A stretch of 64,000 nucleotides of DNA from Membranipora membranacea (Eukaryota; Bryozoa; Gymnolaemata; Cheilostomatida; Membraniporidae), in contig OU612067.1 of NCBI GenBank assembly GCA_914767715.1, positions 34,632,162 through 34,696,161 on the forward strand. Direction: 5' to 3'. Under the pieces are notes generated by a model that saw only the letters and a program-made list of their open reading frames with translations, did no database searches and had not been told where the DNA came from. This document shows positions 12,361 to 44,629 of this stretch, one piece after another (within the stretch, counting starts at the first letter, position 1; the number at the start of each line of letters is the position of its first letter). The position numbers and the translations under genes were made by a program.

Positions 12361-12363
12361 TGT

Positions 12364-20394: not shown

Positions 20395-21165
20395 CACAGA
20401 CAGCAGGTCACTGACAGTTGATTTGATGAGTTGCAGCCTTGTGTATGTCTGGTTTGTGTTTGTTGTGGTGAAGATGTGAAACTGCGTATGAACCAAGTTA
20501 TCGCGGCTGCGCAGCCAAATGCGTTGCTCAGATAAGTCACTTCTCTCTCATTGGTCAGAATATTAAACTTCCAAAACAAACAACACAAGCACGTGCACAC
20601 AATGCCTAGCCACAATCAAAGCATACTGACTCTCGTGATCTGACTGGGCATGTAGATCACTGATAAACTAGGCTGTAGTTACCACAAAGTAGATGTCGTA
20701 AGGCTAAGTATAAATCATGCGTGACTTTAAATTGCGCATGTGCGAGAACAATGAGTTTAGTCTAGGTTCTGAGAGAAAATTTGGTCAGGGAGAATGGGAT
20801 AGCCCCTGCATGAACTGCCAATCAAAATCAGCTAATAGTGACAAGAGAGAATAACTATCAATATCAATTCCGCACGCATTGAAGAGCATACCACCAGAGC
20901 AGGTAGCCAATCAGATGGCTTCGGAATTCCGAGGCTCAATTTTGCAGAGATCAGCTCATGCCCAGAGCTGAGCATGCGCAGAATGCAATCAAAGCAGTAT
21001 AGCACCAGTGAGCAGATGAAACACATGAGAATAACACATTACAGAAAGAGCTATCTATTGGAACACATACATATCTGCTGTCATTTTATTGATAGATGAG
21101 CATGTGAACACTTGCTAATTTCAAACTGTGAGGAAAATATACATCATGGAGCAACCAGATATTAT
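20395..21165. repeat. Left terminal inverted repeat of the large P-like element
   Basis: 20395-20623 and 20997-21165 align with the reverse complement of 44629 down to about 44204, with only scattered substitutions and small indels. The 362-bp segment between these two blocks is absent from the right end. The repeat reaches past the start codon of the PIF1 gene (21146), so the promoter lies within it. Confidence 0.85.
20624..20985. other. 362-bp insert in the left TIR, flanked by an 11-bp direct repeat
   Basis: CAATCAAAGCA occurs at 20613-20623 and again at 20986-20996, while the right TIR has it once. The segment is therefore an insertion with target duplication on the left, or an ancestral part deleted on the right by recombination between the repeats. 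It contains no recognisable ORF. Confidence 0.65.
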
Positions 21166-21963
21166 AGAACAGATTACTACAGCTGTGAAGGGAGGACACA
21201 ATGTTCTGATCACTGGCCAAGCTGGCACAGGGAAAAGTAAACTTACAAGGACCCTATACAAAACTTTGATGGATACTGGCAAGCATTGCGAATTAACCGC
21301 CACTACAGGCCTTGCTGCTGTGTCTCTGTCAGGCTCAACTATACACCGCTTTACTGGTATGTGTCAATAGTTACACTGAAGTAGTATCAAGGAGTACTCT
21401 TTGGTAGTATATGATTGGATACATCAGCCTTGATTTCTCCAACGCCATACTTTAATTATATTGGTGGTGTGTCAGCACACATAATGGCAAAATCTGAGGT
21501 AATCCTATTGGTATATTGAAAACAAAAGTGGAGATAAACAGCAACCCTGGGGAGTGCCAGTGTTCGTTATGATGGGTTTTGAGATATTGTCATCTACTAT
21601 TGTTCTTTGGGTGGGATTCGATTTGTTAGGAAGCTGTATATCCATTCAGTGACATCGGAGTCAAAATGTGATAGTTGCGAGATAAAGTATGGAACATGTA
21701 TTGTGTTGAATGCAGAAGCAAAGTCAAGGAACAGACACCTGGCATAATTTGAAGCTTTCTTGTCAATGGAATCTGGGATGGTAGTGGTGAGGCAATGTTA
21801 TTTTTTGCTGTTTAATTTTACCAAAACCACCTGATTAATAGGACTATAGGGACATATCAACATCCAAAATCCCCGCGCAAAATCCATGGGGAAACTTTGA
21901 TTTTTTTTAAAGCTGTATAGTAGTAAATAGTCTGTTTTTCCATAATACATTAATCCGTGGCCT

Positions 21964-22158
21964 TGTGAGATAACTTCACAGCTTCCTTTGGAGGACCCAG
22001 GAGGGTCAGGAGAAGGAGCGGCAGAAGCTGTGAGATAACTTCACAGCTTCCTTTGGAGGACCCAGGAGGGTCAGGAGAAGGAGCGGCAGAAGCTGTGAGA
22101 TAACTTCACAGCTTCCTTTGGAGGACCCAGGAGGGTCAGGAGAAGGAGCGGCAGAAGC
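21964..22158. repeat. 65-bp tandem array, three units (5' LTR)
   Basis: The unit starts TGTGAGATAACTTCACAGCT and ends GGAGCGGCAGAAGC. Units start at 21964, 22029 and 22094, then a diverged unit at 22159. Each unit carries its own small hairpin (GCTGTGAGATAACTTCACAGC). Confidence 0.9.
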
Positions 22159-22619
22159 TGTGAGATAACCTCACAGCTTTCTCGGATGACTCAGGAGAGT
22201 CAATAAAAAGGGAGGGCAGAAGCTGTGAGATCTCAAGTTCTCACAGCTCAGGAGATTTCAGATAACGAGAATGGAGCCAGGTGATACCGGTTGACGTCAA
22301 CCACTGCAGAATAATGTATATAATTAAAGTCCAACCTCCGCCTTTTTGGAGGGGATTAAACGTTCTCACAGCTCAGGAGATTTCAGATAACGAGAATGGA
22401 GCCAGGTGATACCAGTTGACGTCAACCACTTCAGAATAATGTATATAACTAAAGTCCAACCTCCGCCTTTTAGGCGCTGACATTTAAATGATATAGATAA
22501 TTAAAGACTTTTTATCAGAAACAAAATCTGGATCAAATCTCCGCTTTTGTCAAGAGGATGGGCGGATGCAATCTCCGGTTTTTTGGCCATGCGCGCCCGC
22601 CGTGGTGAACCCCTGTGCA

Positions 22620-22627
22620 TATAAAAA
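22620..22627 (+). promoter_or_regulatory. TATA box of the LTR promoter
   Basis: TATAAAAA follows a GC-rich stretch and precedes CCGGGGGAACATC. An identical copy is at 28781-28788 in the 3' LTR. Transcription would start about 30 bases downstream. Confidence 0.55.
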
Positions 22628-23000
22628 CCGGGGGAACATCAAGGCAAGTCAGTTCTTTTTGGAGAGCCCTTGGAGCATGTTTTTCTGGTAAAGTATAGAT
22701 TGCTTTTCTGGTATCTAACTTAGTTTATTATTCAAGAATAAAAATTGATTTTAATGTCTAAAAGGTATCTCAACTATGAGTCATTAGTAAATTGAATTAA
22801 TACCTACTTGTAACAAAATGCTAAAGAACAATGTTGTGGATAAATTTGATTAGGTAAACAAAACACTTTTTGTATGGAGTTGCCTTCTTTCTCAACAGGA
22901 AGAAGTTAACTCCATACAAAATAAACATGAGCAAAATGAATGAAATAGTGGTGTCTGTTCTGCTCGGGTATCCGGCCCCAAGTGGGTCGAATATGCGACA

Positions 23001-26000
23001 GAATTCTGGTGCCCCGAGTGAATTTTAACTTACGACCTTCAAGTTTTGAGACTGATTCGCGATCATGCTGCGTTATTGTCATTATATCCACTTTATTTAG
23101 CATCGATCTAGAGTAATATCCATGTAAGTACATGTAGCAGTATCATTTTTTTTTCTCTTAGTATTAATCGAGCGTCTCTTAGTATTAATCCAGTGAGACG
23201 ATAGCTGTAGTTTTGTTGCCACAGTTAGCCATAATTCAGTTATCATTATCCATTTCTCAAGATGTGTAGTGGATGTTTCTTCTTCTCTCATACTGTAGTG
23301 CTGGTATGATGCTTGTCATTTTTGGCGATCAGCATGATTGTTTCTTTCCAGTGCCTGTAATAATAAGAGTTAAAGGGCGTTAATCATGCATCAACACATT
23401 CACGCTTCGTATCAGCTAGATGTTTTATTTATAGGACATTAACATTATTATTCTATTCTCTAGATATAATTAATGCTGGATAGGATTGTATTCAAACCGA
23501 ACTTCCCGAGCCGACGACATATTTTACTGAAGAGAGATTAATCACCCATTACAACGTAAGTTGACAAAACAGCCTTTACCTCACAAATCACCAGGTTAAC
23601 CCTTGAGAAAATTATAGGGTTTGAAAATTCTTTTGAGACGACAAAATTACAACCATGGACAACAAAAGTATTTATAAATGATGGAAAAACTGAAGTGAAT
23701 TGAAATAGAACTTGTGGGAAACTCTGGTCCAGGAAAAATGCTGGGACGGATAAACAAAATATTTATAGGGATACTGGAAAAATATTATTATTACTATGGA
23801 GGAAAAAATTGGCGGACAAATTGAAAGGAAAATAGGAGGAAAATTATGGAAAATTGAAACCGGGGAGCTCCAGCGACAACTAATCACTCCATTTGTATGG
23901 AATAGGCCTATAGGGCTAGTTGTCAGAGGCTGCAGACTAATCAAATAAATACGCGTACTTAGTTGAGTTAATATCATTCCTTCATTAAAGATTGTCTGAA
24001 TCTGGCTTTATCTGACAACTGGTCTGACTCTGTACACTTGGGGGATTGATTGTCCATATGTTATACAAAGAGGATATAAAGGAGGATATAAGGAGGATAT
24101 TTATTTTATAGGATTTATTTAATTTTTTTTTTCAAGTCTTTTGTCATAAATCAGGCGCTTTCAACTTCTGATTACAGGATGAAGCTTCAAAACTACTAGC
24201 AATTTTCCTTTCATTTAGTTGTTTTGCCTGTGTTTAGAGTTAAGTTCACTAATTTTCTATACAACTTGAAAAGTTTTATTTTTGTTGTCACCAGTATCTT
24301 TTTAGATTTGGAGGTAAATAGTTTAAACTAGTGAAACATTTATACTCCCATGTTCTTGCAAGTTTTTCACCAACGTTGTCTGTGGTTTTGATCTTTACAA
24401 ACGGAATATAAACAATTATAACTGGTCTCAAAAGTCAACACGCAATGACATTTTATACAAACCCCTTCGGTAGAATGGGATCATTTAACCACGGGGACGG
24501 TAAGTCATGCTAGTAATAGGAAGTGACTATAAGAAAATTGCGTAATAATGGACATTGATGTACAATGCTATGTGTATTCAGACATCCAAATTATGTTAAA
24601 AAGTTACCCAACAACATACCTGTCACAAGTGGCGGATGCCTTGAGATATCTCATCGCCATACCTGCCAGTTGGTCAGCTTACAGGCTATCATGGGGTTAA
24701 ACTACCAAATACAAATTGTGATATGAATATAAATATTGCTGGTTTCATGATCATTTTTCTATGGATAATTGCGTGTTGACTGATACCAATGTATTTACAA
24801 GACAAGGTAAACCATTGGAAATTTGTGTAGGTGATTTGTCAGGTTGTTTTTAAAAGGATGGTTATTTGTCGGCTCGGGATGGTTCAATGGTCATTTGGGG
24901 AACTTATAAGTATTACAGTTATATTGCTGCGAACCTCTCAACACAAATAACCCTGTGCCGGCAAAACATAGAATTCACATGTACTTGTTGTAAATAACTC
25001 AATATACATACCTTGTCGCCCAGTTGGGGGATAATCTTTTCAGTTGTAGGTCTAATAATGACTAAGATATGTAGTTGATTACCAAATTGGGAATCTCCGC
25101 TATTATATGTATGGCCCCATTTATTACTAGGCTAGTTGACTTAGTGCTGAGGTTAGCTGAGTGTTGAAGTCCACCTGCACAGCACAACTAACACAAGTAG
25201 TTAGTTTCCATAGCAATAGGTATGATTGATGAGTACTATCTAATTAAAAAGATGTCTAATGTATTAGGGGGTTAAATGCTACTAAACCTGCTTATGGCAT
25301 AATTTCGCTTGACTTCCACTCTGATGTTAACAAACTTATTTCAAGTAAATTATTTCATGGTTGGCTGTCAGTGGGCTTTAATTCCCATAGCAGGCGTATC
25401 AACCACAACCACGCATAGAAATACAGGAACTAATTTAGAAGGACATGTCAGATGGTGTATTACCGGTAATTAGATAATATAAGACTTGAGATGCGCATTA
25501 GAGTTTTCACGGTTATTTGGGAGTCAAAGTTTGTGATTTATCATTTATTTAGGTAACTATTTAAGGGAGGTCTTGGTATTGGACGTTTGTGTTGTTTATC
25601 TATAATGGTTACTCTTATTGCGCCGTTAAAACTCCGGACGAAACTTTAGATAGTTGTTTTTTGAAGTTCAAAGTAATTGTAAATGCAGATATCTCTATAT
25701 GTTAGTAAAACTGGTTTTATCAACTGACCACTAGTTCTGACAACACTACTAGCCTCAATAGCCTAAATAGCATTAGTGGAATATAGGATGGAGTTTTTAT
25801 TAGCACTCCATCTATTGATGTAGGAGGGGATAACTCTCTGTTAGCATTAGTTTCATACACAATGGATATTCAATGAACTAAGATTGAATTAGGATGGGTG
25901 TTTGAAGTAATTAAATAAATGAAGATAAATTATGCAATTAATACTTTTTTGTATTAGGTAAATAAGAGTGTATGGATTCAAACAAACATTTATAGCTAAT

Positions 26001-27874
26001 TCTGAATGTAGGCACATGCCAATGACCTTGTCTGTCAAATTTGGATCGCAGGGACCTGGGAGCTTTAGTTGTAGGATTACTCCGATGATTGAAGCATTGT
26101 ATCCAACTGTTGAGTGATGTGCAGGTTTTTGGGGGAGGGGCCCAGAAGAACTATTCATTTTTGTTTCACTATACTCAGTATTCAGTGTCAGCAAACATTT
26201 CTTAGGAATTGCCTTTCACAGCGTCCTGCCGCTCCCTGACTGCCACATGCGGGAATAATCTTTCATGTAGGGTTTGGGTTTCCCTTCCACCTGATGGTAG
26301 GGCCTAAGTCACTCGCGACTATGATTCAGTTGTAGTGCAATTACTGTGAGCCTTCCAATATAAAGCAATCAGGGAGGCAAACTGGGCTAATGAGCCTACG
26401 TTGGTAGGGTGAGCTTCATGATCACAGGCATTCCAAACTTTGAATCGGCAAAATATTGATGGTATATTCAATTTGAATTGAGTTCTTCTTACAGGGCCAC
26501 TCCCAGAGACTGCTGATTTGGGCAACAGTGGATGTTGTTATGCCGAGAGCGGTGGGGAGTATGACTGTTGTTTGAAATGTACAGGACCCACGGCAGAATT
26601 CTCGGTGGTTAAGGTCATTGGTCAGTGTCATTTGTCTGTTAGTTGTTTGTTAGTTGAAAAAATTAATTCACCAAAAAGGGTGTAGGGCGAAAAATAAGGA
26701 TTAGCGTTTGGGTTAAAAGAGTCATTAGTTTAAATTTGATTGATGAATCAGTAATTTCCAATGGTACCTATCCATTATCCAATATTGAGAGTACCTTACC
26801 AGTAGTAATTGGGTGTTTTCTGTAGCAGTAGGTTTAAGTTATAGTTACCATGGTTAAATTTGTAATTTAGGTTTAAGTTATTAGATGGGAAATAATTATA
26901 CTCTATCCTTCACAAATTATAAAAGTTGTCTGGTTGCCAGTGTCGGTCAGTTGACAACTCCAAGCTAGGAAAAAGTAAATAAATAGTTACTAGTCTAACC
27001 AGGTAGTTTATTCAAAGCGCTTTGGCTCAATACTGTATTTGTAAACAAAAATTTGATTGAACGGATCTATCCATAACTTTTATTTCATTCATCACTGGGT
27101 TAGTTCATCTGGTTACCATTCCATGCTATTTTCTGTGGTTTTCCATGGAATGCCTTGCATTCCGGGTCAACTAATTTGTTTTCAGTGATGCAGTGTAGAT
27201 GGCCGAGGGGTAATGAGGGAGTGCCAGTACTAAGAGCTATGGTTCAGACGACATAATGGACAATGTCGAGCCAACTATCCTGATGAGCCAGGAATATAAT
27301 GTAAATAAAGCTTGTGAAGATTTAGACATTTCTCTCACAAGTGCGAAGGGAAATAATTGCGATAATATTATGAGTTTTATTTTTTGTCGCGAGGAAGGAG
27401 GATACAACTCCGAATTGAATGCTAAAATTGTCTATTGTGTACATTAAACAATGTTCCTGAATTTGCTTAGAATTGTTGGGAGTGGGAAGTGACCTGTCAT
27501 TTTGCCTTTAGTGTCATAGTCTTTAGATTAGGTCACCTGATAACCATTCTATGCTATTTCCTTTGGTTCTCCGTGGAATGTCTGGCATTCCGGATTAACC
27601 GATTTGTTTTCAGAAGGGAGTGAATGGCTGCTTTCAATGCTGCTTATATAATGGCGATCTAGGATGTATAATCATTCATTATGGTGGGCTGGCTATCCTG
27701 ATGGACAGGGAGACTCAATAGAAAGGAGATGTCACTAATTGAAAATTACTATGGAGACCCAGGGTGAACTATGGCAGCTTAGCTACCCAAGTGGATCAGG
27801 AGGAGATGATCAGAGGAGTGGCAGAGGAAGTGAGACCTCAACTCGGGCAGCGGGGTTCAGCATGAGCCGGAGGC
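23001..27874. other. Non-coding internal region of the LARD-like element
   Basis: 4.9 kb without gag, protease, RT or integrase signatures in any frame. Two related segments of about 90 bp occur near 27110-27190 and 27530-27612 (each ending TTTGTTTTCAG). The primer-site candidate is at 23007-23018. Confidence 0.6.
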
Positions 27875-29161
27875 TGTGAGATAACTTCACAGCTTTCTTT
27901 GGAGGACCCAGGAGGGTCCGGAGAAGGAGCGGCAGAAGCTGTGAGATAACTTCACAGCTTACTTCAGAGCACAGGAGAAACAAGGAGAAGAAGCTGTGAG
28001 ATAACTTCACAGCTTCCTTTGGTGGAACCAGGAGGGTCAGGAGAAGGAGCGGCAGAGGCTGTGAGATAACTTCACAGCTTCCTTTGGAGGACCCAGGAGG
28101 GTCAGGAGAAGGAGCGGCAGAAGCTGTGAGATAACTTCACAGCTTCCTTTGGAGGACCCAGGAGGGTCAGGAGAAGGAGCGGCAGAAGCTGTGAGATAAC
28201 TTCACAGCTTCCTTTGGAGGACCCAGGAGGGTCAGGAGAAGGAGCGGCAGAAGCTGTGAGATAACTTCACAGCTTCCTTTGGAGGACCCAGGAGGGTCAG
28301 GAGAAGGAGCGGCAGAAGCTGTGAGATAACCTCACAGCTTTCTCGGATGACTCAGGAGAGTCAATAAAAAGGGAGGGCAGAAGCTGTGAGATCTCAAGTT
28401 CTCACAGCTCAGGAGATTTCAGATAACGAGAATGGAGCCAGGTGATACCGGTTGACGTCAACCACTGCAGAATAATGTATATAATTAAAGTCCAACCTCC
28501 GCCTTTTTGGAGGGGATTAAACGTTCTCACAGCTCAGGAGATTTCAGATAACGAGAATGGAGCCAGGTGATACCAGTTGACGTCAACCACTTCAGAATAA
28601 TGTATATAACTAAAGTCCAACCTCCGCCTTTTAGGCGCTGACATTTAAATGATATAGATAATTAAAGACTTTTTATCAGAAACAAAATCTGGATCAAATC
28701 TCCGCTTTTGTCAAGAGGATGGGCGGATGCAATCTCCGGTTTTTTGGCCATGCGCGCCCGCCGTGGTGAACCCCTGTGCATATAAAAACCGGGGGAACAT
28801 CAAGGCAAGTCAGTTCTTTTTGGAGAGCCCTTGGAGCATGTTTTTCTGGTAAAGTATAGATTGCTTTTCTGGTATCTAACTTAGTTTATTATTCAAGAAT
28901 AAAAATTGATTTTAATGTCTAAAAGGTATCTCAACTATGAGTCATTAGTAAATTGAATTAATACCTACTTGTAACAAAATGCTAAAGAACAATGTTGTGG
29001 ATAAATTTGATTAGGTAAACAAAACACTTTTTGTATGGAGTTGCCTTCTTTCTCAACAGGAAGAAGTTAACTCCATACAAAATAAACATGAGCAAAATGA
29101 ATGAAATAGTGGTGTCTGTTCTGCTCGGGTATCCGGCCCCAAGTGGGTCGAATATGCGACA
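27875..29161. repeat. 3' LTR (1287 bp) of the LARD-like element
   Basis: It has the same layout as the 5' LTR but with seven tandem units (starts 27875, 27940, 27995, 28060, 28125, 28190, 28255; one is 55 bp) before the diverged unit at 28320. The extra 250 bp equals three 65-bp units plus the 55-bp one. Confidence 0.85.
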
Positions 29162-29822
29162 GCCTAGCAGACAGTGGATGAGGGCTGTATGTGTCCGATC
29201 CCCATTAGTTCTGCCACTTGGTAGTTGTGCGCCTTTCATTTCAATGATTTTATGGCTGGCGTTCCCAAAATAGGAAATAGTTTGTGTAAAGTCATAGGCC
29301 TGCATCGCATCCATAGATTTAAAAAACTGTTTTTTAAATCTATGATCGCATCACAGGCATATCACGTAATGTTAATTAGTAACTGCTGTGGTGGGTTAAC
29401 CACATCAGCTGGGGATTATAATATCTGCATGACTCTAGTGTACATGGCAAAAATCACTGCTTTTACATACCAGGTAATATTAGCTAGGTAGCAAGACTGA
29501 GCTCACGATCATGTACAAATCCTTGATATCAATGTGTTCCAGAGCCAGAGTATAAAATGTTTTAACCATATACGGTTCAGAAATCTTGCTATTGATGTTA
29601 TAAATCCCAAGCTCAGATATATCTCACAGTTATCAGCACGTTGTGACTGCGCATTGCTTTGTAATAGAACTGGTAATGCAGTCATTGCACTCTATTTCAG
29701 GAATCATGGATGGTCGAAATGCGGTATCGACCATCATTCACAGGATGGCGCCACAGCAGATACAGAGTATTCGCTCTACCGAGGTGCTATTTGTTGACGA
29801 GATTTCAATGATGAGCTATTAC

Positions 29823-30259
29823 TATGCACTATGCACTACGTAGGATATGCTTGGATTTTTCCTCTCATTACTTCTACATTAATCTTACTTCATATAGCCT
29901 AGGGTCCAATAATACACATTGTATGACCTTTTGTCAATGTCATGAATGACCGCCCTTATTCAAAATGAAAGAAATTCTGGCTGACATTTTCTTCACTACT
30001 TGGCAGTGAATATCTCTGCTCATGGGTATTTCCCAAACATGAGGCTACTTTTCCCAGAGTCTGACTGGAAAACTCTCATACCTGGAGCAATATAGTAGGT
30101 GGCATGAATAGAAATCAATAGATATTGCAGTTTTAGTGCTCCCCTTGATTAACTTACAACACTCAAGGGCAGACAACTCCAGCAAGATCCTGCATTGTTC
30201 TCAGACTTTCTCTCGCCCGGGGACGTCGGACGAGGGACAAGTCAGGGGGGCTCAGACTA
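29823..30259. other. 437-bp insert splitting the Walker B exon, flanked by a 9-bp direct repeat
   Basis: AGCTATTAC is present at 29814-29822 and 30260-30268. The PIF1 reading frame is continuous if one copy and the insert are removed, giving the usual spacing between DEISM and PFGG. Inverted termini are not evident and no ORF is seen, so the element class is unknown. Nine-base duplications are typical of MULE elements, among others. Confidence 0.6.
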
Positions 30260-31255
30260 AGCTATTACATGTTCTGTAAAATAGAAGCTGTGCTGAGGAG
30301 AGTAAGAAGTTCGGATCGACCTTTTGGGGGTATTCAGATGGTGTTTGCTGGTGATTTTTTACAACTTCAACCAGTTCCTAATCCAAGGTAATTAAATAGA
30401 GGATTGCTTATTGGAAGCAAGGAACCTGTTATAACCTTCTGTGTTATAACTAGTCTAACAAAACTTGTAAAGATTTAACCATTGATTTAACTACATTCAA
30501 TATATCTCATATGGTGTGCCAGTCAGTGATATACGGCGTTCATGTGTACTCTATGCCTGCGAAGCTACAGGTGTCTATTTACTACCATCTGGACTTGTGA
30601 AAAATCTGTTATAACACAATCACATTTATTCAGTCATGCTATAACTTACATCGCCATTCATGGTCACTTTTTTGCAAAATATATCATTCTGAAAACCAGA
30701 TATGGCCACTGAAAACTTTTCATTAACCCAATTTTCTCTTTTCATAAAGACGCCAAGCCATCAAACCCAATGTGTACAAAATTTTCCACTGTGTCAGAAC
30801 GTTATGTCAAAGGTGATGTCACATTTCAAAGGGCCCCATTTCAAAATCGCCTAAATCTGCAAATTCAGCAAAATGCTTGCCAAAATTTTAATCCGGGTGC
30901 ATCGGAGATTAAGGTGGATGGAGTTTTATGAATCTTTGGCATATAATTGGGGAGTGGATGAGGTAAACCTTTAGAGATTATCAAGTATCTGCGACAAAAA
31001 ATCTTCAAAAGATTGGCATATTTGCACTTTGTCAGTGTGTTGTGATAAATTGATAAGTCTAACTTGTCAATGTGTAGGTACGGTGACCCGGGAGAGTCTC
31101 TCATGAAGCACCAGGACATGTTATCGAAACTTCTTCCTCACCATTTCTCGTTAACTGTGGTTCATCGTCAGGAAGAAGGTAAATTTTACAGTGCACTGAG
31201 TCGATTTAATATCATCTTATCTATATGTATCATATCATATGCATAATGTTTTCAA

Positions 31256-31400
31256 CACAGGCAGCAGGTCCCCCCCCCCTTCCACTTACATTGATGAGTT
31301 GCAGCCTTGTGTGTGTGGTTTGGGTTTGTTCTGGTAAACAAACACAAACCACACACACAAAGGCTGCAACTCATCAAATGTCAGGGACCTGCTGTCTGTG
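31256..31400. repeat. 145-bp palindromic MITE derived from the large P-like element's ends
   Basis: It begins CACAGGCAGCAGGTCC and ends with the reverse complement of CACAGACAGCAGGTCC. The arms include TGATGAGTTGCAGCCTT, exactly as in the TIRs at 20395 and 44629. GTTTTCAA flanks it on both sides (31248-31255 and 31401-31408), an 8-bp target duplication. It lies in the helicase intron between the exons at 31078 and 31563. Confidence 0.9.
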
Positions 31401-31624
31401 GTTTTCAATTGGCAAAAGGTAACAAGAAATGAACCTCAAACTCAATTCATAGTCATAGATGCCGCTCTTTTGTTATAAGCTATTAGTACATGAAAAATCA
31501 AGCCTGTGCCCTCGCTGCGCATTTCCATACGGCTGAATACATTTTCAATAACATTTTCATAGATGACCTGATCGGAGTGGTAAATGAACTGAGTCGCGGT
31601 GTGGTGACAAAACAGACATGGAAG

Positions 31625-31960
31625 TGTTAAGATGTAAATAGTAGCAACCACAAATCCTGTCATAGGACTTTAGAGTTATCTCCCCGTTAACAGTAGTAGG
31701 ACAACTCTTATTAGCCTGTGCCTCATCTTAGTTTTAGTTTACACTCTATATCATTTTTATATTCTTACAAATAGTAGAAAACCTTGACATGATACATACA
31801 AGTAGATAAGATTTATAGTGTTTGTTTTAACTCCATTATTTTCTTTTTATACTTCCTTCTGGTTCTGGCTTCTGAGATGATAACATTAAATACTTGTTCC
31901 TCCAATTATATTTCCTGATTATTCCACTATACACCTGATATGGCACACTCCCAATCAACA
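31625..31960. repeat. 5' LTR of the copia element
   Basis: 336 bp, starts TGTTAAGATGTA and ends CCCAATCAACA. Confidence 0.95.
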
Positions 31961-32802: not shown

Positions 32803-35800
32803 ATATGGCCCACCGAGTCAAGTCTGAGTCAATGACACGCAGTCTTGTTGTCGACTCGGGTGCAACATCACATATACTTAATGACCCCAACCGTTTCATT
32901 GACTATGATAACACTTTCAAACCGGCAAACCACTTTGTCGAAGTCGCAGATGGTCACATGAGCAACGAAATCGTAACTGCCAAGGGTAAGGCTAAGTATA
33001 GTGTGCTAGATTCTGATGGCGTATCACATGACATAACACTCGAAAATGCACTACTAGCCCCATCATTTCCCACAAATCTGTTCTCAGTTCGTGCTGCTGT
33101 GGGTAAGGGCGCTAATGTTGTCTTCTCAAAGGATGAAAACTACATACAGGCTGGTAACACAAGGTTCAATCTCACACATGATATGAACTTGTACTATCTC
33201 CAAATAAATGATAGGCCTACAACAGCATATACAAATAAGTCCCTCGAACAGTGGCATATCGATTTAGGTCATATGAATTATGAAGATATCGTCAAACTAG
33301 CTGACGTCACAAATGGTATGACTATCAGTAAGTCATCCGAACCAGGTACATGCGTAGTATGTAAAGAGAGTAAGATGACCAAACAGCCAAAAGTTCAGGA
33401 TGACAAACCAATCCTGACTGCTGCACCTCTTCAGCGTGTCCACAGTGACATACAAGGCCCTATAGGTCCCCCATCCAAACAAGGCCACCGCTATTGTATC
33501 AATTTTGTTGATGAATACTCTTCTATGCTTTTTATATATTGTCTAAGGTCCAAAGATGAGGCACATGTAGCTTTCAAACAGTTCCTTAGTGATATAGCTC
33601 CCATAGGGCAGTTGAAAGAGTTACACACGGACAACGGCGGTGAGTACATTGGTAAGGACTTTCAGTCAGTATTACTCGATAGAGGTATAAAACATACCAC
33701 AACAGCTCCACACTCACCATATCAAAATGGTAAGGCAGAACGATCCTGGCGTAGTCTGATGGAAATGGCACGTTGCCTAATAAACAGTGCTAATATTCCC
33801 AAACAGCTATGGCCATATGCTGTCAAGTATGCAGTATATCTCCGAAATAGAGGATTCCAGCGACGCACTGGTAAAACTGCCTATGAGCTATTCTCAAAAT
33901 ACAAGCCTGACATGCGAAAGATCCACACATTCGGTGCTGAGTGCACATACTACATCGAATCGTATAAACACAAGCTAGACTCACGAGGTAAACGTGGTAT
34001 CTACATCGGCGTGAACACTCACAGTCAAGGTTACTATATCCTCACCGATAACCAGCAGATACTCACATCTCGCAACGTCATCATACACAAACCGACCGGA
34101 CCGCCTTCAAGCCACATCGAAGAGTCAGAACCAGAACCTGGTGTATCCCTCTGTACTAACAAGCTTAAAGGTACTGAGGGAACAGTGTCAGAGCAATCTG
34201 TCACTGAAGAGGCCAAAGATCACCCAGACAATTGTGATCCTGACACTAGCCTGGTCAACCAGGGGCTAACAGAGGGTAGCTGTCAACCGGAAATCCCAGA
34301 GGTGTCTAATGATGGTTACACTAGACTACAGAGAGAGCGTAAGAAACCTGCTTACCTCAACGACTATTATCTCACAGCCTCCATTGACTTTGCATATTCT
34401 GCTGTAGCCTGTATACCTGAAACGTATGAGCAGGCTGTCAAAAGCCCTGACTCAGAATACTGGAGAGCAGCTATGGACAAAGAAATGGAGACAATCACAC
34501 AAAATGACACCTGGGACGTAAAACCACTACCTGATGGACGATCTGAAACCAAGGGTAGATGGGTATACACAATCAAACAAGGCAAAGATGCCAACGAAAC
34601 CCAATTCAAGGCAAGGTATGTAGCAAAAGGCTTCACACAAGTCCATGGTATCGATTACTATGACACATACTCACCCACGACACGTTTCACATCTATCAGA
34701 GCACTGTTACAGAAAGCTGCTAATGACAACATGGTCATACATCAACTTGATGTGAAAGGTGCCTACCTTAACGCTCCTATCGATACCGATATATATCTAC
34801 AACAGCCGCCTGGATATGAACAATCGCATCACACACAATGGCTAACCTGCCACTTGAAGAAGTCACTCTACGGACTCGAGCAATCTGGTCGCAACTGGCA
34901 CCAAACCCTCACAGATTTCCTAAAATCTGAAAACTTCATACCCAACGACAATAATCCATGTGTATACAAAACCACACATGCTGATGATCCAGCTTACATA
35001 CTATTCTGGGTTGATGATATTCTCATTGCCAGTAAGTCGACCGCATCCATGACCGATATCAAACAGAAACTAGGCCAAAGATTCCGCATGGACGACCGCG
35101 GTGAACTCAGCTGGTTTCTAGGTATCGACTTCACCCGCCATGATGGTAGTAACTACCAAATGTCTCAGAGACGCTACACTGAAGAGATCCTGAAACGATT
35201 TGGTATGTCTGACTGTAGACCTGTCAAGGCCCCAGCTGACAGAAATCTCAGTCTAACCAAAGCTACCGACGCCGAACATGATAAGGTAAAAGACTATCCC
35301 TACCGCCGACTAGTAGGAAGTCTTATCTACCTCAACGCCACAAGACCCGACATAAGTTGGGTAATCTCCAAACTATCACAGTTTCTCGACAAACCTGGCC
35401 CTCCACACATAACCGCCGCCAAACGAGTTCTCAGGTACCTCAAGGGAACACTTGATCATTCTCTCATGTTCTCACCCACTGATGGAAAACTCACTGGTTA
35501 TTGTGATGCCGACTGGGCAGGTGACTGTGAAGATCGTAGATCAACAACAGGATACATATTCACACTCGCTAAAGGTGCTGGTACACCAATCAGTTAGAAA
35601 TCCCGTAAGCAAACCACAGTAGCACTATCCTCAACTGAAGCTGAGTACATGGCACTGTCTGATGCGACTAAGGAGATCATCTATCTCCGTTCATTCTGTG
35701 AATCCCTCGACATGATACAACCAACAACCAACGTCATATACAATGACAATCAGAGCGCACTCTCCCTTAGTAAAGGCAATCCCGTCTCGCACAATCGAAC

Positions 35801-35954
35801 CAAACATATCGACATACGCCACCACTTTATACGTGAGCAGAAACACATCGCATTTCAATACATAAACACTGTAGAGAATCCCGCAGACTGTCTAACAAAA
35901 CCGTCGATATGTCCGTTGGTCCGTATAGGATTCATGATTGAGGGGGCGTGTTAA
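32803..35954 (+). pseudogene. pol: copia pol polyprotein (protease, integrase, RT, RNase H)
   Basis: Aspartic protease DSGATSH lies near the start. The integrase zinc-binding region (HIDLGH...CVVC) follows. The DDE core shows HSDIQGP, HTDNGGEY and QNGKAERSW, and the RT has WVDDILIAS and LDVKGAYLNAP. RNase H (GYCDADWAGDCEDRRSTTGY) is cut by a TAG at 35595-35597, where the family has Trp; the frame continues to the ADCLTKP end. These enzymes copy and integrate the element. The nonsense codon removes the RNase H C-terminus. Confidence 0.95.
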
Positions 35955-36284
35955 GATGTAACTAGTAGCAACCACAAATCCTGTCATAGGACTTTAGAGT
36001 TATCTCACCGTTAACAGTAGTAGGACAACTCTTATTAGCCTGTGCCTCATCTTAGTTTTAGTTTACACTCTATATCATTTTTATATTCTTACAAATAGTA
36101 GAAAACCTTGACATGATACATACAAGTAGATAAGATTTATAGTGTTTGTTTTAACTCCATTATTTTCTTTTTATACTTCCTTCTGGTTCTGGCTTCTGAG
36201 ATGATAACATTAAATACTTGTTCCTCCAATTATATTTCCTGATTATTCCACTATACACCTGATATGGCACACTCCCAATCAACA
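35949..36284. repeat. 3' LTR of the copia element
   Basis: 336 bp. It differs from the 5' LTR at C versus A in GTAACTAG and A versus C in CTCACCG. Confidence 0.95.
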
Positions 36285-36740
36285 GGAAGGTCCTGCAACA
36301 ACTTAGCACTAAAAACTTCTCCTCTACGAAATCAACAGACGTAGTAAAACTACACGCTCACAATGTTGATGTAGAGATATCAAACCATGAAGCTTTGCAA
36401 AGCCACGATGGTAAGTTACAATTGTGAATGCGGATAGTGACTGATATTACATGCAGCATTGAGCTACAACTACAAAGACTTCAAACAGCATTGCAATCAT
36501 TGCTGTGTCTGCTGGTGCCGGTTACAACGACCGGCCCAGGGAGAAAGACAAGTGGAGATAATGGTGGCGTCATTGTTTTACATAAATTTGTTAACTATTT
36601 TGCTATGTATAGCAACATTATTCATGGCGGTCTGTCATAATATTTCTGATGACTATGATAACATTAATTATGCAAGTATAAACTATGAACCAGTAACAGT
36701 CTCTATCACTATGGGAAAAAGGCCTCTATTTCATAAAATG

Positions 36741-38535
36741 TTATATGGCTGCTCTGTATGGTTTTGCTGCAGATATTCCAGCATTAGACCTTCTGGCACT
36801 GGCTACTGCCGATTGGCCGATCAGTATGCTATTGTTTGTTGCACCGTATTGGCTGTAAGTTGGCATATCATTGGCACCGTTGTAAAACGCTCTTTGCTGG
36901 CAAAAATGGTTCTCTATATGGTCAGAGTTTGTCAGACTTATAGAGACATAGGAGCCTGGGAATGCGGTAAGATGTTGCCTTGCCCATTGTGGGAAGCCGA
37001 GCAGATATGATTCTAAATCATCCATACTCTGTGGGCTGGGCAAGTTGTAGGAGTCTTTGCGCGCTCTCCAGTTGATAATGAACTGAGCTATGTCGTCCAT
37101 GGACTTTAGCCGCTCATCATTGGGATCTTCTATGGGGCGTATGTCTTGGATGATGTTGATCAACGAAGTTGTGAGTTCTAGAAGCTTGATGGCCCCATCA
37201 AGCACAGTCCCATCTTTAAGTGAGCTTCGGTATTCTTTCATTAGGAATAGCATTTTACTACCTAAGCTGTCTATTGCTATTTTGTTTCTCATCTTTTGTG
37301 ATGCTGTCGGGAATAAATGCTCCTCTGTCATATTATAGTGTATAGGACGACTGTTTGACATGCGGTCCCAGCGTACGCTATCAATCCACATTTGCCAGTT
37401 GACCGATTGATTGTCGATAGTGATATGTCTTGTATGTCCCTTTTCTGGATGACCTCCACTCTTTAGGATATTGTTTCGGAATTTTTTGACGCAATGCATC
37501 GGATCTTGAATATACACAAGTTTTTGTCCATCAACAGTGTTCTTGCACGTATATTTGCATGTCCTTGCGGTTTCTTTTGGAAAGAGTGATTTCACGTAGC
37601 TCCGATTGTCTGCTCCGCCATCTGACATCACATACTCTACGCTAAATCCAAATAGCTTATGATAGTATATGAGCTCTGGTATTATTATGTGGTAATCAAG
37701 TGGCTTTGCGGTGTTTGTTGGATAATGAGCTATAGGGAATCTGAATCCAGTAGATCCCACAAACATGAACTGAAGTACCTGTGTGGCCATTCGCTTACCT
37801 ACCTCCTTCTCACATTTGTTATAGATAATATTGGTCTCTGGAGATGTGTCGATAAAACCCACCAACTCAGGCATGCCATTTTTGACTGTCATCACAAGAT
37901 CGTTTTGGATTTTCATCTCATCGTGTATTAGGCCGCCTGCGTATCCATGTTTTTCAATGTTCATGTTCAGTGCAGTCTGTCCCATCCATCGAAACATTTC
38001 GATAATTACTCCTGGCTTCTGCTTTATCTTATTTTTGTATATGGTGAGCTGGCGGCCAGATGGCAATATGAGCATCTGTGAGTCTTTAAGCATTGCATAA
38101 CTTTTGTGGCTTGCGATAAACATGCTGAGGCACAGCCTGATAACCTCTGTGTCCCAACGCATAGCCTGAGGGTTGACCATATTTGCCTTGCGTTGCGCGG
38201 CAAGTAATAGCTTTTGCTCTTGTGAGCAATTAGGGAATACCTTATGTAGTATGCTAGCTAAGTCCGACTCTATGTCTTTCAGTTCTATCTCGGGTGTGAA
38301 TTTTTGAAATCCCCTGCACCAATGGCATACAGTTATGCTTTTGGCTCCGAGTGGAACTAACCCGTTGCACCATTTTGATCGAATCCTACCATCCTCATTT
38401 AGTCTAAACCGTTTTGGGTCCAAAGCGCCTATAACAGATCTCTTTGTAACCGATAGATTTTCTAACATCAGTTTGTCTTGAATGTATTTTAAAGATAACT
38501 GCTCTGTGGCTACTCTGTATATACTGTTCAGCAGC
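36741..38535 (-). CDS. P-element-like transposase, main exon, antisense inside the helicase gene
   Basis: An ORF of 575 codons from the ATG at 38468. The frame stays open upstream to a good acceptor (pyrimidine tract, CACAG) at 38536, so this is probably a terminal exon beginning at 38535. P-like features in order: a helical N-terminal part with ILPSGRQL, then HDEMK (first Asp), MSDGGADNR (second Asp), DPMHCVKKFRNN (equivalent to DPPHLLKN in the other P gene) and SDHIENHFCQQR (Glu). This matches the RNase H-like P/THAP9 fold. No stop or frameshift was seen. No THAP exon was found on the minus strand to the right, although a first exon could begin in the right TIR. It may be the enzyme that moves the 20.4-44.6 kb element. 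The alternative is a nested P-like element whose ends I could not see. Confidence 0.8.
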
Positions 38536-40089
38536 CTGTGTGACAGAAGAGCAGATGAACATACAGCGGGATGTAATTAATAGGATTTTGCATACACTAT
38601 TGATGATCACAGCGGGAGTTGTTGCCCAGGCGTAGTAGTAAGACAACTCTGTGATATATGGAAAAGTTTCTTGCTGCCTATTGTAACATTTTTAGTTAAA
38701 TTATAATTTTATTGCTATTATAGCAGTGATGTATCGGTATAAAGCAAAGATTCTGGCAGGAAACGCTCTCTTATTAGCTGTACTGTACCAAATATACTTT
38801 GTCTGAAAGTTGGGGCTCCGGTCATTCTCAGGAGAACTATCTCACACAATCTGGTGAATGGACTCCAGTGTGTAATTAAGTCTCTCAACAATGTGGAAGC
38901 TGTCGTCAGTTTTGAGGACGATACACAAGTAACGATACAACCCGTGCATTTCCATGTTTATGATGTATATGGAAAAATCATAGCGACACGTCATCAACTT
39001 CCAATAACATTAGCGTATGCGCTGACTGTACACAAAGCACAGGGCCTCACTATAGCGAAGCATCTCATCATTGATGCAATGAATATGGATATGCCAGGTC
39101 AGCTCGCCGTAGCCATTGGTAAAGGGCAGAAGAAAGAGCGTATATCAATCATAAACCTCAAAACTTGCACTCCCACGAAGCACCCTGATTTCATCTTGGA
39201 GCAATACAAAGGTAAGTATTCATCACCAGTAGCCACTAGAACTTTTAAAATAACAAATGAAAAATGTTGGCTGAAGTTTGCCATACAAGTGGCACTGATA
39301 AGCTCATATTAGCCTTGGTCTTTCCCAATACATAGTCTATGTTTCCTACCCTGTTATATTTACCCATACTATGCTATCCAAAACAATCCCGAAATATTAT
39401 CCTTTGTTGTATTATAGGTCGATCAGTAGACAGCCAATGTTGTTCAAGTGCGAAATCTCCCTTTCAATCAACAGTGAACCCACCTACCACTAGTACCAGT
39501 GTACCATCTACATCACAGACAGCACCGCCTACCGAGTCAGTATCTGGTAAGTTGTTATCGCGGAGGCACAACTGTTTTTCGGACGCAACCTGCGTTGATG
39601 AGCGACAAAGATACAGGAAAGTGTTGCCAATGTTTCCAATTGGAGTAGCAACTGAAGATCGTCCATTTTTTCTTGAGTTCAATTAAGTTAATATGCCTTG
39701 CTGCTAAAAATGTTTACTATCTTTGCTCTGCCTTACAGTGTTATGTCAAACATGATGATACCAATCATCATCTATATGAGCATCTATGCGCACCTGTACA
39801 TAGATCTGTGCATATAAAGGTGCATACATACTTACAATGGCGTTATAATCTGTCAATAGTGGAACCAAACTTGCCAAACTAAGGTTGCTTTTTGAATTAG
39901 TTGATATAAGTATCTACGTAGCGTGCTTGTGTCACAAAGAGAAGACAACTCCCTGTTTTAGCATTAAAACTACTCAGCGCATAATGTATGATGTTTGACA
40001 ATAAAAAAATTATTTGGATCCCTGGACCCACTAGGTCAGGTTGATTGTGATGTGCCACCATAGAATGATAAAAACGCCAATAACGATCA

Positions 40090-41946
40090 GATACAACATA
40101 CAGTGGTGCGCGTACCACTGCACAACACACAGGTCTTCAGCTAGAAACCATGAGTCAAACGCTGTTTCGAGGCCTTCTCTAGTACAACCTCCTCATGGCC
40201 GGCCCCAGCAGCATGAAGCCACCCCTGTGTGTTGCTGAGCATCTCAATCAATCTCATCGATCCCTCAGTGCATTTTGTCAGTTTCGGTGGTTTGACATAA
40301 TTGGTGTGTTTACGCTGTTGCGCAACCAGGGAGGCTGCCAACTCTTCATTGTTTCAGTGCAACAATGTTCGCCCCATCACTCTCATGCTTATACTCTAAG
40401 CCAAACCAGTGCAGGGAGGTTTGCTTTCCATCAACTCATCGGCGCAAAGTCGCTATCGTCAAGGCACCCGCCCCTCGTGCCACTCGTTCACTACTCAAAT
40501 TCACCACATTGAGCATAGTACAACTCATACACAAGTCAGAGAGATGACTTGTTTGCGCTACAGCCAGTGGGCTGACTGTGATTTCCTGTCTCGCTCTGCC
40601 TGCCTTTTATGCGAGGGCCAAGCTTTTAATCCTATGTTTGTAAAACCTTAGATCTAACTCAGACTCACTTTGATTTTCACTCTGCAGAGATTAAACTACT
40701 TTAATTTGAGTATTAAAGGCATAATCTTGCTTAGCCTTCTACCCCAAGCAATTTGCTTATCATCACTTAATCCCCTCATTCTAATCCTTACAAGGATTAT
40801 AACAAAAGGAATTAAATGCTGGCCAACTCCACAAAACAAAGTGAGTGTGTTAAACCCCAGCTTACAAGTAATAGGATTACTTAGCTTTTGTCTTCACACA
40901 GTGCTGTTGCCATATCCATGCAGATGCGCTTTCTGCCTCATGTACTATGCTTTTTGTGGCTTGTTTGAGTGCTCTTCCTGAAAGCCCAACTCTGGTCAGA
41001 AATTTGGTAGCTGATCTAGCCATGAATCCACGGCAGCCAACTTCCACTGCGAATAATTCGCAATTCCAACCTTTGTCTTGGCATTGTGTGACCAGATCTT
41101 CGTATCTTGTCAGTTTTCTCTCATGCGCATATGAGAGATTTTCTTCCCAAGGCACCGTCAATTCCATCAGTATTAGTGCTTTTTCTTTGTCAGACCAAAC
41201 AATTAAGTCTGGTCTTTGGTTCGTGATCACAATATGCTGTGGCATGCTGAGCTGCTCTGTGAGGTCGCATCTCACCTGCCATTCTCCGCTGTTCATCAAT
41301 CCCTTTTTGCGCAAAATCTTTTCACGCGCTTCACCACCAGCATTAGCATATTCACACTTCTCCGTGACGTATTTACACAACACTTTCAGGACTTGATTAT
41401 GCCTATACGTGTATCTTCCCAGGCTCTGTTGGCAATTCGACAGTATATGTCGAAGTGTGCCCTTAGCCGAGCACTCGGCGCATTTCGAGTTCTCGGTCAA
41501 ATTCCAGCGTTCCAGGTTTGCCGGGGTCGGTAGTTGATCATAAGCTGCACCAACCAGAAAGCTGATCCTTTGTGGCTCCATCGACCACAATTCTGTCCAT
41601 TTGAGCTGACGCTGCTCAACAGACTCCCAACAAGTCCACCTGCCTTGTTGGGCTTGGCCTACAGCTTGTGTCTGGCGGCGCTCCTCTTCCATCTTGCGCA
41701 CCTCATCAACTACCATCTCCCGTCTAACCTTTGGGCTTTCCTTTGAGAACCACCGGTTTGCTTCCCAGCCGATGCCATGACGTGCAGTTGTCACAGCACC
41801 CACAATCTCACTTATCTCCAGTCGAGATTTGGCATCTCTGACAGTCTCTGTGACAGACCATTTTTTACCAGTGTCAAGTGTTGGAGCACATTCCCTTATC
41901 ACCTGGTCTGGTGACTCGTTCAACATCATATCCAGTCTCGAGTCTC
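40090..41946 (-). mobile_element. 5'-truncated RLE-type non-LTR retrotransposon with 18-bp target duplication
   Basis: AAACGCCAATAACGATCA occurs at 40072-40089 and 41947-41964. Between the copies lies a minus-strand coding end followed by about 790 bp of 3' untranslated sequence. The RT region is missing, as expected for incomplete target-primed reverse transcription. Confidence 0.8.
40877..41945 (-). pseudogene. C-terminal part of RLE-type retrotransposon ORF (zinc finger and endonuclease)
   Basis: About 350 codons are open. A knuckle CAECSAKGTLRHILSNC is followed by PDLIVWSDKEKALILMEL, continuing to a Lys-containing helix (ERKLTRYEDLV). This is the PD-(D/E)XK restriction-like endonuclease arrangement of R2/NeSL/Dong-type elements. 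Reverse transcriptase is absent because the element is 5'-truncated, so the fragment cannot transpose alone. The exact clade is not determined. Confidence 0.75.
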
Positions 41947-43257
41947 AAACGCCAATAACGATCATCTATAGCGCAATCGCTGTATATTCTTCACTAAATG
42001 TTGATATGTTCATCAAATTTCTCTCAAAAACCAAAATTCAGACAGTGTATGGAATTCCGGAGAATCTACGACTATGCGTGAACTTTATTCATTCATTCAT
42101 GAGCAAATTCTAATATTTTACTGTTTACATGTTTAGACGCTAGTTCAGATGAAGATATAGACTCAGATGATAGTGATGCTGAAGATGTGGTGGCAGCATT
42201 CTACAGTGAATACACAGAGCTGAGTCATGCTGATCTGACAAACCTATTTGAGCATGACGAGGAAGGACATCTCAAGGATCGAGTCGGCAGCTATCGTACC
42301 ACAAGGCTGCTCAAGTTCGTTTTCAACGTTAGGGAAGAGCTTGGGAAAATCGCTACTAAGACACTAGAAAAATCAGACACAAAGATAGCTAATTACAACG
42401 CCTTCTATGCCTAAGTCAGCCATTTCATGACATCCCCACGCTATGAACAGTTGAAAGTGAAGCTAGATAGGCGATGTGATCAGGAAACAAGTCTTGTTTG
42501 CTTCAAGATTGTGCAGGAAGTTCAACAGCACATCATTGTTGCAGGTGATGTCAACCCACTCCCAAATAGGCAAGTAAGAAACAGTGCCATTGGTGCCGAT
42601 AACATATGCAATATTGGTGGCTGGGCTGTTTTTCAGCTTATGAAGGAGCTCACAAAAGCAATCAAAAGTCATCCCGAAAAAATCAATGATCTCAAAATGG
42701 TGAAGTGTCTCGTCGATAGAACAGCCTCCAATAGATATACAGATGAAGTGAAATATGTCAAAGGCTCAATGATCCGGTTAAATGCTCAGAGCCAGCAATT
42801 CTTCATAAAGCTGGACGAACTTATCCGTAGGGAAGAAACTCCTGAAAAACTCAATGCCCAGAGACGGGATTTCTATTCATCTGTTCTAAACAACCTGCTA
42901 GCAAATACTGAACTTAACGATATTTATTCCTCACTCAACATCCCCGAGCACTTAAAGTTAAATATGATGAAACGTGATGTCAGGTTCAGCGCGAGCAGGT
43001 TTAGAGTTGAACTCAAGAGAGAAGTCGTGAAAGAGATCGCTACCAGGAAGTCAGTAGCGGCAGCTACCAAGAAAAGAAAGCTGGCATCTGCTGACATAGC
43101 TCCCTGCCTGTACTGCGGGAAACACTGTGCGCGGGCCAGCATATGTTGTGATAAGTGTGACAGATGGGCACACTACCGATGTGCAGGGTTTACTGGCAGA
43201 GAGCCATTTTTGAAAGATAAAGACAGTACATGGATGTGTAAAAACTGTGTTGTGTAA

Positions 43258-44203
43258 AAATAAGTTCCCTAATTATAATATAGGAACAATTATCATTACC
43301 ACTTGTTTAGCTGTGTTGTCTGGAGCCTCCATTTAGTTGTGTGTCCAAGGGTTGAGGCTGCCATCTTATATTTATTTGATGGAATGTACACAGAATTCTT
43401 CTGCTATCAACTTTTCACTTGACTGATTTTACTTTGCGCCAAAACCTGGTGACCAATTGTGTTAGCCAGCCCTCAATCCTACTTGGTGGCATATTACGCA
43501 GTCAGATTTTCATTGCTATATGGTTATATATATACAAGCACACACCCTAATTCCAGAATTGCATCATCACCTCTTGCTGTACACACTGTCTAGCCTTTGT
43601 TCTAGCATTCCTTAATTATCTCATTTCATTTTATATGCATGTCAGCGCCAATATCTACAGTTTTTCCACTTTGTGGGTAGTGTTGCTCAGTTACTCACCA
43701 TTCAAAATACATATACTTTTCATTGTCTTAGCCACCGTGTCTCAAGATAAGGGTGTGGATGACAATATAATATATATTGGTCGCAAATAAATAACTAAAC
43801 TTAGAATTATAATATTGCTGATTTAGACATCAACCACAACCACGGCCATTGTCAATACTGGAACAGAAAAAATTCTCATGGTTGTGAGTGAGCATCTCGA
43901 AAAGCATTAAATCGTTTGTTGTGTGATAGTCGCTTAAATTAAAGTGGACAGAAAAAAAGCAGAAACATCTAGTAATCGTCATCGGCATTTATGAGCATAA
44001 GGTGCAGAGTGCTGACACCGCTTGCTGATTATATCAATATGTTGTCAACAGTGCTAGTTATGTTTTCGACATCGATTTCTTGGCATTGTACTCCTGCTTC
44101 TATATCTTCTCAAACTTTCGAAGAGAGTGATTATGGTGGTACTGCTGCCACATTGTGCTGTAAATCAGATGCTCTGTAACAACCTACAATTAGACAATTA
44201 GAA
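43258..44203. other. Non-coding interval between the PHD exon and the right TIR
   Basis: AT-rich, with no convincing exon on either strand. If the antisense transposase has upstream exons they should lie here or in 38.6-42.1 kb, but none was recognised. Confidence 0.4.
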
Positions 44204-44629
44204 TTAAAATATCTGGGACTGATGATGATGGGTGCTCCATGATGTATATTGTCCTCACAGTTTGAAATTAGCAAGTGTTCACATGCTCATCTATCAATAA
44301 AATGACAGCAGTATGTATGTGTTCCAATAGATAGCTCTTTCTGTAATGTGTTATTCTCATGTGTTTCATCTGCTCACTGGTGCTATATTGCTTTGATTGT
44401 GGCTAGGCATTGTGTGCACGTGCCTGTGTTGTTTGTTTTGGAAGTTTAAAATTCTGGCCAATGAGAGAGAAGTGACTCATCTGAGCAACGCATTTGGCGG
44501 GTACAGAAGCTGCGCAGCCGCGATAACTTGGTTCATACGCAGTTTCACATCTTCACCACAACAAACACAAACCAGACACACACAAGGCTGCAACTCATCA
44601 AATCAACTGTCAGTGACCTGCTGTCTGTG
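44204..44629. repeat. Right terminal inverted repeat of the large P-like element
   Basis: Its reverse complement begins CACAGACAGCAGGTCACTGA and follows the left TIR through AAATGCGTTGCTCAGAT and GTGAGCAGATGAAACACATG to the ATGGAGCA start codon and a PDI(L/I)-coding stretch. Compared with the left copy it lacks the 362-bp insert and has small extra segments (TCTGTACCCGCC, ATCATCATC). Confidence 0.85.

Follow-up and report, generated by a model that had tools for sequence, protein, structure and literature searches.

A Probable P-Superfamily Transposon with a PIF1-Type Helicase Gene of Its Own in the Bryozoan Membranipora membranacea

Organization of the Element

The window, a stretch of 64,000 nucleotides from the genome of the bryozoan Membranipora membranacea (assembly GCA_914767715.1, contig OU612067.1; C3:34632162-34696161 in a genome of 339 Mb in 18 contigs), contains one inverted pair of long ends, between which lie a P-type transposase gene and a spliced gene for a PIF1-type helicase (Table 1). 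The two ends are 98% identical over the aligned bases: their global alignment has 381 matches and 8 mismatches, with gaps of 12, 1 and 373 bases, the last one being an insertion within the left end. An exact 7-bp target-site duplication adjoins each tip. The near-identical inverted ends of about 400 bp and the 7-bp flanking direct repeat, both put forward in an initial annotation of this DNA, are therefore real features of the locus. The element spans 24,235 bp. Subtracting five later insertions leaves a unit of ~9.7 kb, or ~9.5 kb if an internal foldback copy of the ends is also removed, which agrees with the ancestral unit of about 9.5 kb in that annotation.

Table 1. Features of the element, with their positions in the window (C7a is another copy of the unit, described below; LTR, long terminal repeat; ORF, open reading frame).
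Feature	Position	Strand	Remarks
Target-site duplication ATTGGCT, left copy	20388-20394		exact 7 bp
Left terminal inverted repeat	20395-21157	+	tip CACAGACAGCAGG; PIF1 start codon (21146) at inner edge
Insertion in left terminal repeat	20624-20985		edges by BLAST; missing from C7a
PIF1 exon 1 (Walker A)	21146-21356	+	
Young LTR-type element inserted in PIF1 intron 1	21964-29161		missing from C7a
PIF1 exon 2 (Walker B, motif III)	29701-29822 and 30269-30387	+	interrupted by 446-bp insertion
446-bp insertion in PIF1 exon 2	29823-30268		9-bp duplication; missing from C7a
PIF1 exon 3	31078-31178	+	
145-bp foldback non-autonomous copy of the ends, PIF1 intron 3	31256-31400		exact 8-bp duplication GTTTTCAA
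PIF1 exon 4	31563-31624 and 36290-36410	+	interrupted by LTR retrotransposon
LTR retrotransposon in PIF1 exon 4	LTRs 31625-31960 and 35949-36284		5-bp duplication GGAAG; missing from C7a
P-type transposase ORF, 611 aa	36744-38576	-	wholly within PIF1 intron 4
PIF1 exon 5 (2B domain, motifs V-VI)	38724-39211	+	frame broken at start in window copy
PIF1 exon 6 (linker)	39418-39546	+	
Insertion in PIF1 intron 6	40090-41946	-	18-bp duplication; missing from C7a
PIF1 exon 7 (C-terminal region, terminal PHD finger)	42137-43257	+	one internal stop
Right terminal inverted repeat, 401 bp	44229-44629	-	inner edge with same start-codon context
Target-site duplication ATTGGCT, right copy	44630-44636		exact 7 bp

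The PIF1 Helicase Gene

The helicase gene occupies seven exons on the plus strand between the large ends (21146 to 43257). Exons 1-4 form a single open frame with GT/AG borders; exons 5, 6 and 7, worked out by hand, are mutually in phase. The window copy is dead as a PIF1 gene because its frame is broken at the start of exon 5, through a break in phase together with one in-frame stop, and because exon 7 holds one in-frame stop. The encoded helicase belongs to PF05970 (PIF1, E = 3.7e-31), and its residues 10-390 of 408 align with a solved PIF1 structure (E = 9.5e-43, 150 bits); the spliced PIF1 helicase proposed initially is confirmed by this match and by the seven exons. Against the chain of the Helitron Helraiser, the best stretch is 21-148 (E = 5.1e-14, 55 bits).

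The PHD finger, the other domain proposed for this protein, is indeed found at the end of exon 7 (residues 231-278 of the last ORF; PF00628, E = 5.8e-05), with a score of 23.5 bits, slightly below the cut-off of 24 bits, and in a single copy. The part of exon 7 from 42654 on, which includes it, is present in the window copy only: the DNA of 42654-43257 is unmatched elsewhere, and a protein search with the PHD part gives weak matches elsewhere. The AlphaFold model of the exon 7 ORF (mean predicted local distance difference test score, pLDDT, of 36.6) is too poor for use.

The P-Type Transposase

The antisense ORF matches PF21787 (TNP-like RNase H) with E = 1.4e-10, exceeding the curated cut-off, and the P-like transposase seen there at the outset holds. 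It also aligns with another P transposase, the second in the window (22% identity over ~500 columns, E = 6e-09). Residues D219, D319 and E555, which we take to be catalytic, share columns with that protein, the matching residues of which align with the solved Drosophila P transposase (PDB 6p5a). A DPxHxxKxxRNN stretch aligns with the start of the GTP-binding domain in the second P transposase. An AlphaFold model of the antisense transposase, built on a two-row alignment, is too poor for use (mean pLDDT 32.6).

The second transposase (6339-8624, plus strand, 762 aa) is a canonical P-type ORF with helix-turn-helix, RNase H and GTP-binding domains, and it matches 6p5a at 7.9e-39. It has no DNA similarity to the element studied here.

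Copies Elsewhere in the Genome

The end repeat has at least 65 matches in the genome, found with the right end as query by scoring 40 of 253 candidates. Two further full pairs of ends enclose 28 kb (C7:278222-306203, called C7a) and 34 kb (C7:455860-490285, C7b). Both show the same order: exon 1 at the end repeat, exons 2-3, the foldback copy, exon 4, the antisense transposase, exons 5-6 and part of exon 7, namely the first 172 of 372 codons only. Identity to the window DNA is 87-97% per colinear stretch. At C7:10.55 Mb, a cut-down fourth copy (C7d), seen without its ends, is colinear with the unit between intron 1 and codon 83 of exon 7, apart from a segment lost inside it. The initial annotation had called for copies sharing all parts, and C7a and C7b, together with the cut-down C7d, show an unchanged order of PIF1 exons and antisense transposase.

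C7a and C7b, ~178 kb apart, have 99.5% identity over 9.1 kb, and the flanks that were compared (190 bp beside the left end and 600 bp on the right) are common to both; hence, they are one insertion that was duplicated segmentally, unless the pair is an unmerged haplotype or an assembly duplicate. The 600 bp on each side of the window element do not match the flanks of C7a, and the two insertions are therefore independent. The whole unit was inserted at least twice, both times with the foldback copy in an identical internal position.

The PIF1 start codon lies inside the left end repeat in the window copy, C7a, C7b and C3b, and its context is repeated in the right end of the first three. Exon 1 occurs with 90-93% identity at three other end-bearing places, two of which are duplicates. 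Exon 5 at 84% identity or more is found at four places, all four within such units; the initial annotation had held that PIF1-PHD genes consistently outside such ends would speak against the unit. It had said the same of end-bearing copies without both genes: many of these do exist, but those inspected are small foldback or deletion derivatives. The latter are found on C11, C3 and at three C5 places. The C5 derivatives (18.90, 18.98 and 19.29 Mb), all end-bearing, have flanks ~92% alike and represent one insertion that local duplication has spread.

The copies also differ in places. C7a and C7b are without the PHD part, with a 3-base overlap at the junction, which seems to fit a deletion in these two better than an insertion in the window copy. 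Relative to C7a, C7b and C7d, the transposase of the studied element in the window is ~600 bp shorter, the missing sequence being an intron and a portion of an N-terminal exon. An insertion in the C7 copies was considered for this 602-bp difference and rejected: since the segment occurs in all three and includes both a splice donor and an open exon, it was lost from the window copy.

Outside this genome, no relatives were found in viral contigs (searched with three proteins, one alignment and one DNA pattern), in a collection of genome contigs (one pattern and one protein) or among phages (tblastn).

Later Insertions in the Window Copy

C7a shows an empty site for all five later insertions. 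The LTR-type element of intron 1 has direct repeats that are 100% identical over 1038 bp and start with differing numbers of a 65-bp tandem repeat; GCCT stands on either side, as read by eye, and no coding domain was found among the frames scanned. The LTR retrotransposon of exon 4 looks Copia-like by eye. The insertion of intron 6, with a weak zf-RVT match, reads like a fragment of a non-LTR retrotransposon. The internal foldback copy, common to C7a and C7b and partial in C7d, folds much better than shuffled sequences (z -15).

Target-Site Duplications

The size of the duplication was scored at 13 of 19 loci (L012-L030) that had a scorable pair of tips near the match. Left out were L018 (the same place as L012), L022 (the window itself) and L021, L024, L028 and L029, where the second tip is absent; five wrong pairings were also dropped. 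An exact 7-bp duplication is present in nine of these 13 foldback loci, one with a single mismatch in two (L016, L025) and neither in two (L015, L026). No exact duplication of 6, 8 or 9 bp was found among the 13 pairs. A size of 8 bp, suggested by the internal foldback copy, was consequently rejected for the element, as the foldback loci give 7 bp. When the nine loci and the window element are read in both orientations, T is found at the second position and A at the sixth in 16 of the 20 readings, the two counts being equal by construction; the full GTANTAC consensus is not matched.

A 40-bp inverted match (83%) lies just beyond both ends of the element (20096-20135 and 44977-45016). It contains GCCAATGTGTTGGCTC, which is partly similar to the target duplication ATTGGCT.

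Selection on the PIF1 Gene

Over 592 codons, the PIF1 genes of the window and C7a differ by 38.5 amino-acid-changing and 29.5 silent substitutions (omega 0.48, p = 0.0015 in a one-sided binomial test, with the transition/transversion ratio taken from the noncoding DNA of the element itself). The comparison with C7d, over 328 codons, gives an omega of 0.49 (p = 0.020). The helicase was therefore kept by purifying selection while the source copies were alive.

Distant PIF1 Loci

When all 55 candidates were scored, exon 5 of PIF1 gave 36 matches in the genome, merged into 33 loci: the four of the family (window, C7a, C7b and C7d) and 29 distant ones with 26-46% identity. A transposase match lies within 8 kb of 15 of the 29, against a mean of 0.061 and a maximum of 2 in 2000 runs of uniform random placement of the 43 transposase loci. 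The 15 pairs lie at C1:31.66, C3:8.63, C3:14.97, C5:26.12, C6:6.66, C7:6.15, C7:10.50, C7:10.83, C7:20.12, C7:21.70, C7:22.23, C7:22.83, C10:4.36, C10:4.52 and C10:12.34 Mb. Eleven of these pairs are tail to tail (convergent), three are on the same strand and one, at C7:10.83 Mb, has the arrangement of the window. By eye, the pairs form about nine groups and so do not represent 15 independent events.

The Helitron Rep/HUH domain (PF14214) has nine matches in a six-frame search of the genome, none of them on this locus. By eye, none of the 29 distant PIF1 loci has a Rep match closer than 8 kb, the nearest one being ~33 kb away on C2, although nine matches make this a weak control. To judge from these neighborhoods, PIF1 relatives of this type often lie near P-type transposases in this genome and are not seen with Helitrons.

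Nature of the Element

With a probability of about 0.87, the element is a decayed P-superfamily cut-and-paste transposon in which PIF1 is a gene of the unit itself. This reading rests on features that were observed directly: the inverted ends with their 7-bp duplications, a P-type transposase domain, a PIF1 gene in spliced form and the presence of the unit at a minimum of two independent sites. The selection on PIF1 and the P-like transposase matches near distant PIF1 loci also favor it. Two proteins are encoded by the full unit (~9.6 kb): a DDE transposase of the P type and a helicase of the PIF1 type that is extended at its C terminus, with the PHD finger in the window copy. The other copies in the genome indicate, by their sequence, that the two genes probably moved together as one unit.

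Several observations weigh against this interpretation. Motif VI of the window helicase differs from the sequence of the PIF1 structure at both arginines. Because the PHD finger is known from one copy, the "chromatin reader" first proposed as an ancestral part rests on that copy. On the transposase side, the solved P transposase was not hit when the ORF was searched directly against PDB with phmmer, the GTP-binding domain PF21788 was unmatched, and neither a THAP nor any other known DNA-binding domain was found with Pfam in the regions scanned (six frames of 38577-44630, the minus strand of 36287-38742 and the N-terminal exon of C7a and C7d). Constraint on this gene is not clear-cut (omega 1.05 against C7a; 0.60, p = 0.046, against C7d), and its weak signal counts against a simple story, although the relics may have decayed longer. 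The C7 insertion lacks a clean duplication (five of seven bases agree). Since the genes of the window, C7a and C7b are broken and the remaining copies seen are cut down, joint activity of the two genes was not seen. Of the distant PIF1 loci, 14 of 29 have no transposase match within 8 kb, and the pairs are known from the proximity of the genes. Uniform random placement disregards the clustering of repeats and so inflates the excess of close pairs by an uncertain amount; the common opposite-strand arrangement with a spacing of 2-5 kb is nonetheless unlike loose clustering.

Among other explanations, a one-off gene capture fares best, while still being unlikely. A P-type element would have taken up a host PIF1 gene as a passenger without a role in transposition, and the unit would then have given rise to a few copies. 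Few end-to-end copies were indeed found (the window and the C7a/C7b duplicates of one insertion), and the helicase is nearer to PIF1 structures than to Helraiser. A passenger gene does not account well for a start codon placed within the end repeat, a transposase nested within the PIF1 gene, an omega of 0.48 for PIF1 or the 15 of 29 distant PIF1 loci that adjoin P-like transposase matches, mostly in another arrangement.

It is less probable again, and would be rather surprising, that a PIF1-bearing element of another kind received a separate P element in one of its introns. The confinement of the transposase to intron 4 is what such an event would produce, and the arrangement differs in most of the distant pairs. 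Against it, no terminal repeat with a duplication was found around the transposase alone, by a test that recovers both the outer ends and the foldback copy (12 random placements, as a control, gave none in 11 cases and one in the other). Moreover, the transposase sits at the same place in C7a, C7b and C7d, and it is the outer ends that have the 7-8 bp duplications typical of the P superfamily.

A Helitron-derived helicase fragment trapped between P-type ends is very improbable. PIF1-like helicases are typical of Helitrons, but this one has its own spliced gene, the six-frame genome search gave no Rep/HUH match at the locus, and none of the nine Rep matches is within 8 kb of the 29 distant loci, few being expected there by chance in any case. 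Finally, a chance association or assembly artefact, with unrelated inverted repeats around adjacent genes in a region dense in nested repeats, is practically negligible in view of the end-repeat matches, the foldback copies with 7-bp duplications, the colinear copies and the empty sites.

Proposed Mechanism

For the P-superfamily transposon with its own PIF1 gene, the anatomy suggests that the transposase would cut at the CACAGACAGCAGG ends and insert the unit with a 7-bp stagger. Since the ends hold the first PIF1 codons, they probably double as promoter and gene start, perhaps on both strands: they supply the start codon of PIF1, probably its promoter and perhaps the same for the transposase on the opposite strand. 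The PHD part may tether the protein to chromatin.

PIF1 helicases, which unwind DNA in the 5'-3' direction, power the long D-loop synthesis of break-induced replication; copies lost by P elements are restored through gap repair from the sister. The likeliest role of the helicase, although its probability is rather low, would be to help copy the unit back after excision: such synthesis would fill the donor gap of 10 kb with the sister chromatid as template, which would increase the copy number. This role is inferred only, and in that respect it is also a weak point of the interpretation. Equally tentative is a broader view, that of a clade of P-superfamily transposons in which PIF1 would be a second gene, selected for copy-back by repair synthesis at the donor gap, with one family fused to a PHD finger.

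Comparison with Known Transposons

P elements are the textbook cut-and-paste transposons with a single gene, that of the transposase. The element studied here shares with the Drosophila P element and the zebrafish THAP9 element the P-type RNase H core, inverted ends and short duplications. It differs from them by bearing a helicase; in the available text of PMC7776569, no element-borne helicase is mentioned for either of them, the P element is 2.9 kb long, and both have 8-bp duplications and a THAP domain.

A close likeness is with Galileo, a member of the P superfamily in Drosophila, for which the accessible parts of PMC4168063 and PMC2775673 describe duplications that are 7 bp or, in a few cases, 8 bp long, a target similar to GTANTAC and long ends resembling foldbacks. 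Both have a P-type transposase, duplications mostly of 7 bp and rarely of 8 bp, long inverted ends and non-autonomous copies of a foldback-like type; the T2/A6 skeleton of the target may be shared as well. Because Galileo has such duplications, the 7 bp found here are no departure from the P superfamily; the contrast first drawn with 8-bp P elements does not stand, 7 bp being the family norm. Unlike Galileo, our element has a helicase, a word absent from the main text of PMC4168063 as available.

An accessory helicase is not without precedent in transposons of the DDD/E type. Members of the Kolobok superfamily make TTAA duplications. According to the available text of PMC9587614, the fungal KolobokH of this superfamily is a DDD/E transposon with an accessory RecQ helicase downstream of the transposase domain. 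The combination is similar here, except that the helicase is a PIF1 (PF05970), not a RecQ, and that the transposase belongs to another superfamily.

Helitrons and Helentrons have a PIF1-like helicase, a Rep/HUH rolling-circle protein and no terminal inverted repeats. The present element resembles them in carrying a PIF1-like helicase and differs in its 401-bp inverted ends, its 7-bp duplication and the absence of Rep/HUH at the locus. That Helitrons encode a helicase is also stated in the accessible part of PMC12730594.

A P element with PIF1 was not found in the open-access literature, as far as its texts were available, Repbase and closed journals lying outside the search. The locus would mean that a replication/repair helicase was added to the transposase in one lineage of the P superfamily; distant relatives of the two genes co-occur across one genome. 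It makes testable whether the gain of copies by cut-and-paste elements depends on host gap repair alone or also on an enzyme of their own. For annotation, it would represent a non-Helitron source of PIF1-like genes in eukaryotic genomes.

Other Features of the Window

The remaining features lie on both sides of the element. The region 12362-16878 consists of diverged direct copies, ~71% identical over 583 bp, and includes an ORF (15777-16553) with a weak GDSL-lipase match. Pieces of a MULE/ZSWIM-type transposase (PF21056, PF10551 and a SWIM zinc finger) occupy 49687-53064. On the minus strand, at 54980-59249, two long adjoining ORFs of 862 and 587 aa look by eye like a protein pair of a long interspersed nuclear element.

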